A stretch of 39,803 nt of DNA from Ignavibacteria bacterium (GCA_003235555.1 QJVY01000028.1:1-39803), one strand, 5' to 3'. Positions 25,149 through 32,127 are shown, counted from the stretch's first letter. Program-made: numbers and translations. The notes: generated by a model not told the origin, from the sequence alone.

Positions 25149-26411
25149 TTGGATAAATTCGTCATCCACGGAGGGTCGAGGCTGCACGGACGCGCCACCG
25201 TCGGCGGTTCGAAGAACGCCGCCCTCGCCCTCATGCCCGCCACGCTGCTGGCCAGCGGGAACTACACCTTCTCCAACATTCCCGACCTGAAGGACATCAA
25301 GACCATGGGACGCCTGCTCGAGTCCATGGGCGTCGATGTCGCGATCGGCGCACGCGCACTCCGGATCAACACGTTCCGCGTCAACAGCTTCGAGGCCCCC
25401 TACGAGCATGTGAAGAAGATGCGGGCGTCGATCTACGTCCTCGGCCCGCTGGTCGCGCGGTACGGGTACGCGAAGGTCTCCCTCCCCGGGGGGTGCGCGT
25501 GGGGTCCGAGGCCGGTCAACCTTCACATCGAGGGGATCAGGAAACTGGGAGCGACCGTGAGGATCGACCGCGGGTACATCATCGCGAAGGCGAGGCGCCT
25601 GAAGGGGCGGAAGCTCAACCTTGCGGTGTCGAGCGTCGGCGCGACCGGCAACCTCCTGATGGCCGCGGTCCTGGCCCGGGGAACGACCGTGATCACGAAC
25701 GCCGCCCGCGAACCGGAAATCGTCGCGCTGGAAAAATTCCTCACGCGGATGGGGGCGAGGATCCACGGCACGGGGACCGCCCGGCTGGAAATCGAAGGGG
25801 TCGACGCCCTCCACCCTGCGGACGAGACGATGATCCCGGACCGGATCGAGGCCGGAACGCTCCTCGCGGCCGCGGCAATCACCGGGGGACGGATCAGGCT
25901 GGGGGGATGCCGGCCCTCCCACCTCAGGTCCCTGCTGACGCACCTGAAGCGCGCCGGCTGCACGGTCGAAACCGGCGGGGACTGGATCTCCCTGAAGGCC
26001 CCGGCCACACTCCGCGCCGTCGGCGCGACAACCGGGATCTACCCGGGTTTCCCCACCGACATGCAGGCTCAGTGGATGGCGCTCATGACCGTCGCGAGGG
26101 GACCCAGCCGGATCACCGAGACGATCTACTTCGACAGGTTCAAGCACGTGCCTGAACTCGTCCGCCTTGGCGCAGACGTCACCATCGAACAGGAGGCGGC
26201 GACGGTCCGCGGCGGCGCGACGCTCGTGGGTGCCAAGGTCATGTCCACCGACCTCCGGGCATCCGCCTCGCTGGTGATCGCGGGGCTCGCGGCGGCGGGA
26301 CGCACCGAGGTCCTGCGGGTCTACCACCTGGACCGGGGGTACGACCACCTCGAAAAAAAACTGCGCCTGCTCGGCGCCCGGATCCGGCGGGTGGCCGGGA
26401 GGGAATACTAG
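25149..26411 (+). CDS. murA: UDP-N-acetylglucosamine 1-carboxyvinyltransferase
   Basis: TTG start; '[37 protein letters not shown]', active-site '[20 protein letters not shown]', '[17 protein letters not shown]', '[15 protein letters not shown]'. Confidence 0.95.
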
Positions 26412-26415
26412 CGCG

Positions 26416-28889: not shown

Positions 28890-31132
28890 AACTGCGCCGC
28901 ACATTGTTCGCCGGGGGAATCCTCCTTACATACGCGCTCATTGTAAGCAGGCTCCCGCTGCTGAACTACCTGGGGTACGAGTTCTCCGCGGCCATCGCGC
29001 TCCTGTTTCCGCTGGTGCCGGGGTTGTTTTTCCTCCGCACGTTCGCGCGGAGGGGAGGACCGGAGACAGGTGCGGATACGGGCGGAGTCCCACACCGGCC
29101 GGGGGGGGGCGGTGGGCCGGGGGCGCTCGCCGCGACCGGACTCATCGTGCCGCTGGCGGTGGGATGGATGAACGCCGTTTTCGTGAAAAACTGCTCACCG
29201 GCGGAGGGGGTGGCATGGTTTCTCCTGTTGCCGGGGGCGGGGATGATCTGGGTCGCCGCCCTGGCCTGGTTCTGTTCCGCGGCGTTCAGGCATCGCGTGC
29301 TCTGGTACCTCGGCATCGTCTCGGTCGTGATGGTCCATCCGGTATTGCTGGGTTACCTGACCCCCCGGATCGACTCGTACAACTTCATCTACGGGTATTT
29401 CCCCGGCTTCACCTACGACGAGGACCTGACGATCACCCCGACACTGCTGGCCTGGAGGGGTGTGACGCTCCTCTGTGCCCTCCTGTTCGTCTCCGCGGGG
29501 AAAGTCGCCTCGGCGAGGAGGGGAGGGAAGAAGGCGCGCGTTCCGTCGGTGGTGTTTTTCATACTGTCGGCGGCGGTCGTCACGGTCTGGATTTTCCGGA
29601 CAGACATCGGTTTCGAGACCACGGCCTCATCGCTCCGGCGGACCCTCGGGTCGGCCGCCCACACGCGCCATTTCCGGATCTACTACGACACGGCGGCGGT
29701 ACCGGCCGACGAGATCCGGTGGGTCGCGGCGGAGCACGAGTTCCGGTACGACGAGGTCAGCCGTTTCCTCGGATCGGACACCGGCCGCGTCATCGAATCG
29801 TACCTCTACCCCGACGCCCCTACCAAGCGCCGCCTCATCGGCGCGGGGAACACGGACATCGCGAAGCCGTGGCGGGGGGAGATCCACCTCGACCTCGACT
29901 CCTGGAGGTACACGCTCAAACACGAACTCGTGCATGTGCTGGCGGCGGAGTTCGGCATGCCGGTGATCGGTGCGAACGTCAACATCGGCCTCGTCGAGGG
30001 ACTCGCGATGGCGGCGGGCCCGCCCTTCGGGAACCGCACTCCCGAGGAATACGCCGCCGCGATGGTCCGCTTCGGCATCGTCGACGACCCCGCGGCCCTC
30101 ATCCGGCCCGCTGGTTTCGCCTTCCGGTCCTCGACCGTGAGTTACGTGCTGATGGGGGCGTTCTGCGGGAACCTGATCAGCACGCGCGGCATCGGGCCGT
30201 TCAGGGAGTGGTACGGCGGCGCGTCCCCCCTGGAGGCGTACGGCGTGGACGCGGACTCGCTGGTAGCCCTCTGGCGGGAGTCCCTCCGGAAGATCGAGGT
30301 ACCCGAGAGCTGGAGAGCGCACGTCGAGTACTACTTTAACAGGGGTTCGATTTTTTCACGGGAGTGCGCGCGGACTGTGGCGAACCTCAATGCGCGCGGC
30401 ACCGCCTCGCTGGGAAACAGGGACTACTCGTCGGCGCGGGGGTATTTCAGCTCGGCCCTCGGCGAGAGCTGGAACCCGGGATCGTTCGCGGGGATGGTCC
30501 GCTCGATGATGGGCTCCGGCGACTTCGGCGGCGTCATCAAAATGTTCGTGAACGAATCGGGCGATTCGTTGAAAAGGGGATCGCTTGAGGGCTACCGCCT
30601 GCTCCTCGGCGACGCCCTCCTCGCCCGCGGGGAGTATCCCGGGGCCCTCAGCACCTACCGTGACATCCGCTCGCTGGACCTCTCCCCCGGGATGAACGAA
30701 GCGGTCGCCATGCGCATCGCCGTGACGGAAACGGACGACCTGCGGGAATACCTCGCACCCTGGATCACCGGGACAGCGGGGGATTCCGCCGCACTGGACA
30801 TCGTTTCGGGCCTCGAGAGCGGGGAAAACCCGGCGCTGCTGTCCTACGTGAGGGGGAGGTTGATGCTGAGGCGGAACGATTACGTGGGGGCCGCCCGGGA
30901 GACCGCGAATTTCTTCGCGCCGTTCGCCGATCCCGTCCTGAACGGGGCGATGAACGACGTCACCGCGGCGGCCTTTTTCCGGCTGGGGGATTTCCTCTCG
31001 GCCCGGGTGTTTTTCGAGAGGACGCTCGGATACCGACCGGGGGCGACCCTCGCCGCCAGGACCCGCGACCGCGCCGCGCGGTGCCGGTGGTTTGAACGCG
31101 AGTGGGCGTCGATGGAGTTGACGCTCCAATGA
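28886..31132 (+). CDS. Membrane-anchored gluzincin-like metallopeptidase (peptidase-MA-like) with C-terminal TPR-like region
   Basis: N-terminal polytopic region, then 'HTRHFRIYYDTAAVPADEIRWVAAEHEFRYDEVSRFLG...LDLDSWRYTLKHELVHVLAAEFGMPVIGANVNIGLVEGLAMAA' (HELVH at 29921-29935). ATG 28886 overlaps the upstream TGA. Confidence 0.75.
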   Translation: MKLRRTLFAGGILLTYALIVSRLPLLNYLGYEFSAAIALLFPLVPGLFFLRTFARRGGPETGADTGGVPHRPGGGGGPGALAATGLIVPLAVGWMNAVFVKNCSPAEGVAWFLLLPGAGMIWVAALAWFCSAAFRHRVLWYLGIVSVVMVHPVLLGYLTPRIDSYNFIYGYFPGFTYDEDLTITPTLLAWRGVTLLCALLFVSAGKVASARRGGKKARVPSVVFFILSAAVVTVWIFRTDIGFETTASSLRRTLGSAAHTRHFRIYYDTAAVPADEIRWVAAEHEFRYDEVSRFLGSDTGRVIESYLYPDAPTKRRLIGAGNTDIAKPWRGEIHLDLDSWRYTLKHELVHVLAAEFGMPVIGANVNIGLVEGLAMAAGPPFGNRTPEEYAAAMVRFGIVDDPAALIRPAGFAFRSSTVSYVLMGAFCGNLISTRGIGPFREWYGGASPLEAYGVDADSLVALWRESLRKIEVPESWRAHVEYYFNRGSIFSRECARTVANLNARGTASLGNRDYSSARGYFSSALGESWNPGSFAGMVRSMMGSGDFGGVIKMFVNESGDSLKRGSLEGYRLLLGDALLARGEYPGALSTYRDIRSLDLSPGMNEAVAMRIAVTETDDLREYLAPWITGTAGDSAALDIVSGLESGENPALLSYVRGRLMLRRNDYVGAARETANFFAPFADPVLNGAMNDVTAAAFFRLGDFLSARVFFERTLGYRPGATLAARTRDRAARCRWFEREWASMELTLQ

Positions 31133-32127
31133 TCATCGGACGCGTCCCGGTCTGTGCCCTCGCCGCGCTGATGACGGCCGCGACGCTGAGCGCACAACAG
31201 CTGCGCCACTACGTGTTTTTCAACCGCGACAGGGAACGCATCGCGGAGCCGTCCTTCCTGGAGACGCCGGCCTTCGAGGGGGCCCAGCTGAAGTACACCT
31301 GGAGGGAACTGGAGCCCCGGAGGGGCGAATATGATTTCAGCGGAATCGAAAAAGACCTCCTGTTCCTGGAATCCCACGGGAAAAAGCTCTTCATCCAGCT
31401 CCAGGACGTTTCGTTCGATACGGCGGTCAACACCCTTCCGCGGTACCTGATGACGGACACATCGTACCACGGCGGCGCCGTCCACCAGTTCGAAATACGG
31501 GAGGACGGCACGGTCGACCGCTTCGGCTGGACGGCGAGGAGGTGGGACCCCGCCGTCCAACGGCGGATGCACGCTCTCTACGACACCCTCGGCGCGATGT
31601 TCGACGGCAGGATCGAGGGAATCAACCTGCCCGAGACCGCGGTGGAGTTCGGCGATGACGGGGAGGCCTTCCCGTCAGGTTTTTCCTTCGACGGGTACAG
31701 GGACGCGGTGATCGTGAACATGCGGGCGTTGAAAAGGGCCTTCCCGAAATCTCTGGCCCTGATTTATGCGAACTTTATGCCGGGGGAAAAGCATCTCCCC
31801 GCCGGGCGGTCATACCTCAAAGACCTGTACGACGCCGCGCGGACCTGGCGGTTCGGACTCGGCGGCCCGGACCTCTTTCCCTACAAACCCGGCCAGATGA
31901 ACAACGGCTATAAATTTCTCAGGATGGGAAGGGATTCCATCCCCTGTGCCCTGGCGGTCCAGTGGGGAAATTTCGACTACGTCAATCCCAAAACCGGTCG
32001 CCGGGTGACGATAGAGGAGATGATCGCGTTCGCCGGGACGGAGCTCGGGGTGGACTACATCTTCTGGGGTACGCAGGAGCCCTACTACTCAACTGCGGTC
32101 ATCCCCTACGTCGCAAAGCTCCGCTGA
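31129..32127 (+). CDS. Exported TIM-barrel, glycoside hydrolase-like protein
   Basis: Signal peptide '[24 protein letters not shown]'; '[46 protein letters not shown]' resembles the start of cellulase/GH TIM barrels; '[11 protein letters not shown]' and '[10 protein letters not shown]' are possible acid residues. ATGA overlap with the upstream gene. Confidence 0.6.

Follow-up and report, generated by a model that had tools for sequence, protein, structure and literature searches.

The periplasmic M48 metalloprotease BepA of E. coli binds LptD and the BAM complex through its TPR domain and either matures or degrades stalled LptD (PMC8423444). Among glycosyltransferases, TMTC1-4 are O-mannosyltransferases of the GT-C/PMT clan; the DD, RxD, KE, and DW motifs are assigned to donor, metal, and phosphate binding, and full-length TMTC-like proteins have already been reported in prokaryotes (PMC7801869). 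General protein O-glycosylation occurs in the Bacteroidetes Tannerella and Porphyromonas (PMC6120980, PMC8729774).

The window analyzed here, 39,803 nucleotides long, is the entire contig (C76) of a 2.77-Mb, 90% complete genome of an Ignavibacteria bacterium, and it carries the following genes:

25149-26411, + strand: murA, UDP-GlcNAc enolpyruvyltransferase (PF00275, E=5e-97), the left anchor of the conserved locus
26416-27168, + strand: GT2, 250 aa, with its ATG at 26416 (PF00535, 6e-17)
27165-28889, + strand: TMTC, a TMTC-like GT-C glycosyltransferase with C-terminal TPRs, recognized by conserved motifs
28886-31132, + strand: PROT, a 748-aa membrane zinc metallopeptidase (66-sequence family and AlphaFold model)
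31129-32127, + strand: TIM, a secreted GH-A-like TIM-barrel protein (signal-like segment and sub-threshold GH42 match)
32246-34950, + strand: enolase and phosphoglucomutase, the right anchor of the conserved locus

The interpretation that best explains these genes overall, to which we assign a probability of about two in three, is that of a mosaic envelope locus composed of PROT, a GT2-TMTC pair, and a mobile TIM gene, rather than a four-gene machine. The valuable element of this patchwork is the PROT family, which is phylum-wide, is often encoded directly behind murA, and has neither a name nor a Pfam or NCBIfam model that recognizes it.

Organization of the locus

The positions of the five genes, the 4 nt between murA and GT2, and the ATGA overlaps at 27165, 28886, and 31129 are all evident in the DNA, in agreement with the first-pass annotation. 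The murA start codon is TTG, and the alignment of its homologues begins at residue 1. Four-base overlaps account for 63 of the 794 co-directional neighbor pairs (7.9%) in the window and related loci; three in succession are unusual, yet ordinary inside an operon. The proposal that these junctions impose stoichiometric coupling is unsupported because most of the overlaps are not conserved: TMTC and PROT are separated by 8, 12, 24, 36, or 160 nt in relatives, two relatives have GT2-TMTC spacings of -4 and 34, and PROT adjoins TIM only in the window among the loci compared. The arrangement here thus suggests an operon, and not a fixed stoichiometry.

Genes were called and clustered in 40 loci from the same order and in 40 from further families. 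The backbone conserved among them runs murA-PROT-eno-pgm, and PROT and eno often have a GT9 heptosyltransferase gene between them; murA-PROT(-GT9)-eno-pgm is taken as the ancestral order in the class. The upstream neighbor of PROT is murA in 40 of the ~80 loci, 34 of them with the two genes directly adjacent and 6 with GT2/TMTC in between. Both murA and eno are housekeeping genes, and their neighbors need not share a function.

Architecture and classification of PROT

The conserved PROT protein combines seven TM helices with an invariant zinc site of the gluzincin type and a TPR tail, as follows:

28886-29608, + strand: residues 1-241, seven TM helices, N-in/C-out (hydropathy and positive-inside rule)
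29864-29998, + strand: catalytic core with K327-P-W, H334, HELVH (346-350), and E371, the third zinc ligand
30368-31129, + strand: residues 495-748, a TPR-type helical tail (helix pairs in the AlphaFold model; TPR structures top the sequence and fold searches)

In an alignment of 66 sequences, H346, E347, H350, E371, and G372 are invariant and KPW 327-329 and H334 are at least 90% conserved; the HExxH...E zinc residues are also invariant in a 41-sequence set. PROT thus has the HExxH motif and C-terminally placed third Glu ligand by which clan MA gluzincins are defined. The membrane part has nine residues that are invariant in the 66 sequences (P24, G30, E32, C103, G170, G174, Y177, D178, and R191), which lie in the outward loops or close to them. 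By hydropathy, the inward loops are K/R-rich and the outward loops nearly K/R-free, and from this distribution the catalytic domain and TPR tail should face the periplasm.

The AlphaFold model of PROT is of high confidence (pLDDT 92.6, pTM 0.91). Because the TPR tail dominated whole-chain fold searches, the catalytic domain was modeled separately (pLDDT 91.4), and its top fold matches are zinc metallopeptidases of the thermolysin-like type, namely M9 collagenase, lugdulysin, and M1 peptidases, all of them weak (E 0.03 or worse, TM 0.55 to 0.59). The whole-chain search of a viral structure library gave nothing useful. Among 66 PROT relatives, 40 match PF13485 (Peptidase_MA_2) at E values up to 0.1, the best being 1.3e-6, and the full-length members scanned score 17 to 19 bits against a cut-off of 32.4. 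For the window protein, a Pfam scan gave no PF13485 match with either the full protein or the domain, only weak TPR matches, and an NCBIfam search gave nothing; the M48 domain PF01435 had no match in any member scanned. PROT shares the HExxH...E site with clan MA Peptidase_MA_2, lugdulysin (M30), and Vibrio collagenase (M9), which include its best fold matches, but its membrane and TPR parts are not shared with them. At E below 1e-20, about half of the class (123 of 245 genomes) has PROT, and many other families of the phylum also have full-length members; no plasmid record matches.

Gene neighbors and proposed role of PROT

Our best guess, by analogy, is that PROT is an envelope quality-control or maturation protease that works in a BepA-like manner. 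The TPR tail would hold protein substrates, and the catalytic domain, facing the periplasm, would cleave envelope proteins or help to mature them. As in BepA, the zinc site consists of HExxH and a downstream Glu, the peptidase domain is followed by a C-terminal TPR domain, and the setting is the outer envelope; unlike BepA, PROT is larger, has seven TM helices with conserved outward loops, and is nearer in fold to M9/M30/M1 gluzincins. PROT is not itself classed as a BepA, since it has no M48 match and has the extra seven-TM domain, and the likeness in working is put forward as a hypothesis. A maturation or quality-control protease of this kind would be a Bacteroidota counterpart of BepA and approachable in culturable relatives.

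The gene neighbors of PROT point to no substrate, and the literature on GWxTD and on murA/eno clusters in Ignavibacteria yielded nothing relevant. PROT is usually partnered by a GT9 heptosyltransferase or a GWxTD lipoprotein. In one family (f4), PROT is relocated, and the genes behind it encode a GWxTD-domain lipoprotein, GT9, and, in most cases, a RecD2-like helicase. Loci L048, L052, L055, L057, L058, L060, L064, and L067 have PROT, the GWxTD lipoprotein, and mostly GT9 and the RecD2-like helicase, with the genes often overlapping.

A second reading, unlikely but the strongest of the alternatives, ties PROT to outer-surface export (T9SS) or LPS assembly, such that it would process a T9SS-plug or a GWxTD lipoprotein partner and its GT9 and murA neighbors would reflect a shared envelope regulon. 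PROT and GWxTD genes adjoin in 11 loci, 4 of them with -4 overlaps, and in several loci of other classes DUF3078 lies 5' of PROT and a T9SS_plug_1st protein lies 3' of it, all of which is consistent with such a role. However, the T9SS channel SprA is near-universal in the class (239 of 245 genomes) and PROT is patchy, so T9SS does not require PROT, which is rejected as a strict part of it, and the GWxTD gene of the window genome is located elsewhere, with an acyltransferase-like gene and GT9. A search for the T9SS plug family gave no match in the window genome and none in the controls either. L207, L209, L211, L212, L214, L215, and L221 share the conserved order pyrH-like kinase, DUF3078, PROT, and T9SS-plug protein, with the kinase not called everywhere. 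Contig C160 of the window genome (L230:6209-9535) has consecutive genes for a GWxTD protein, a lipid-A-acyltransferase-like protein, and GT9, of which the GWxTD and GT9 genes adjoin PROT in relatives.

Less probable still is that PROT represents a new class of envelope protease, in which the outward loops of the seven-TM domain (PLxNYLGxEFS, NC, and GxFPGxxYDE) would form a chamber above the zinc site, sensing lipids or glycans, and couple proteolysis to the state of wall, LPS, or glycoprotein assembly; the placement of PROT beside GT-C transferases, heptosyltransferases, and murA would then be a trace of this link. GT-C genes adjoin PROT in three lineages, an adjacency noticed post hoc, without a background comparison, that serves as a lead: TMTC in family f1, PMT_2 in L184 and L185, and an opposite-strand TMTC-like gene in L069. 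The genes of the latter two lineages are at L184:6094-7968, L185:10630-12399, and L069:5908-7509.

That PROT is a catalytically inactive scaffold retaining a gluzincin-like fold would suit the weak fold matches and the existence of pseudoenzymes among MA-clan proteins, but is highly improbable with H346, E347, H350, and E371 invariant in both sequence sets.

The GT2-TMTC pair

GT2 has no TM segment and matches Dol-P-Man synthase in the PDB (5mlz, E=2e-5); its nearest NCBIfam models are PpgS and AglJ, at 64 to 70 bits against equivalog cut-offs of 325 to 375. With these three enzymes it shares a GT-A domain that would produce a polyprenyl-phosphate sugar, with a GT-C user encoded alongside, but it scores far below the AglJ/PpgS equivalog thresholds, and it is likely a polyprenyl-phosphate-hexose synthase.

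TMTC has the motifs DD (35-36), YRP (72-74), GRND (167-170), KE (212-213), FDW (315-317), and EHRLY (370-374), most of them invariant or nearly so in 13 sequences. D35 and D36, in the first outward loop (M1), are kept in at least 12 of the 13. Motifs M3 to M5 (RxD, KE, and DW) are represented by R168-N-D170 and K212-E213, conserved in relatives, and by F315-D-W in the window protein, and of SHKSYRP (M2) and ERxxY (M7) just YRP and EHRLY are kept. The protein thus resembles TMTC1-4 in its DD, RxD, KE, and DW motifs and its TPR tail, but is bacterial and retains the other two motifs only in part.

By analogy, the pair probably O-glycosylates exported proteins. GT2 would load a hexose onto polyprenyl phosphate in the cytoplasm, and exported proteins would receive it from TMTC, on the model of TMTC O-mannosylation. 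This would parallel Bacteroidetes O-glycosylation (PMC6120980, PMC8729774) in phylum and in a likely periplasmic location, but no glycan-assembly cluster is seen in the window, only a two-gene module of polyprenyl-P-sugar synthase and GT-C. The pair is not new in kind, because prokaryotic TMTC-like proteins have been noted (PMC7801869), but it provides a small bacterial model of O-glycosylation of the TMTC type.

GT2 lies directly 5' of TMTC in 8 of the 98 genomes of the order searched (G000, G001, G002, G004, G005, G012, G015, and G025), and in each of these the pair lies behind murA. In G001, G005, G015, and G025 the pair occurs without PROT, the PROT search giving TPR-only or no matches, and G007 and G013 have murA-TMTC-eno, likewise without PROT. 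Conversely, G003, G008, and almost every locus from other families have PROT but no adjacent TMTC, and most loci have PROT without GT2-TMTC. Since the pair occurs both with and without PROT, the two are modules that share a common murA-enolase slot and are gained and lost independently.

The TIM gene

TIM has an N-terminal signal-like segment (residues 1-21) and a GH42 match that is below threshold (E=0.07; 12.9 bits against a cut-off of 21). It resembles GH42-like clan A glycosidases in its TIM-barrel-like sequence and this weak match, but falls under every threshold. TIM may act as a secreted enzyme active on glycosides, a glycosidase role being no more than a guess.

The distribution of TIM is sporadic: with the window included, 2 of the 98 genomes searched in the order and 6 of 396 sampled in the phylum have it. 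In the window it takes the position that GT9 holds in family members. Plasmids of Vibrio, Ewingella, Enterobacter, Serratia, Xenorhabdus, and Rhizobium carry relatives that are ~40 to 44% identical, and the GC3 of TIM (0.83) is the lowest of the set, the others being at 0.87 to 0.91. These features are consistent with arrival by horizontal transfer. TIM was also considered as a diverged GT9 of that slot and rejected, as GT9 proteins are glycosyltransferases and the only matches to TIM are its own homologues. This TIM-barrel-like family is unannotated on plasmids of several Proteobacteria, e.g., NZ_CP045340.1:487604-488494.

One system or several modules

The first-pass annotation had joined GT2, TMTC, PROT, and TIM into a single undescribed system, and its list of parts holds: a synthase-like GT2, a TMTC-like GT-C protein, a TPR-tailed membrane zinc peptidase, and a secreted TIM-barrel-like protein. 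The system itself does not, as the full gene set is kept together in no relative among the ~80 loci, and such a lack of synteny is what that annotation had named as refuting it. As a single system the set is rejected on synteny, with its parts occurring without one another in nearly complete genomes.

The corresponding pathway, in which GT2/TMTC would O-glycosylate, TIM trim, and PROT proteolyse, is very unlikely and already largely refuted for the four-gene set: it would account for the tight overlaps within the window and for TMTC lying immediately 5' of PROT in 6 of 15 genomes of the window's family, as well as for the GT-C genes beside PROT in two other lineages, but every part occurs without the others, TIM adjacency is exclusive to the window, and the overlaps are mostly unconserved. 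Under the mosaic interpretation, the glycosylation pair and the protease would be linked here by co-expression at most, although the same adjacencies in the 6 family genomes and the two other lineages make a functional TMTC-PROT link possible.

Two further multi-TM GT-C-like proteins are encoded on the - strand just upstream of murA (21289-22938 and 22947-24950); one is TPR-terminated and the other is weakly like a terminal arabinofuranosyltransferase (NF041481).
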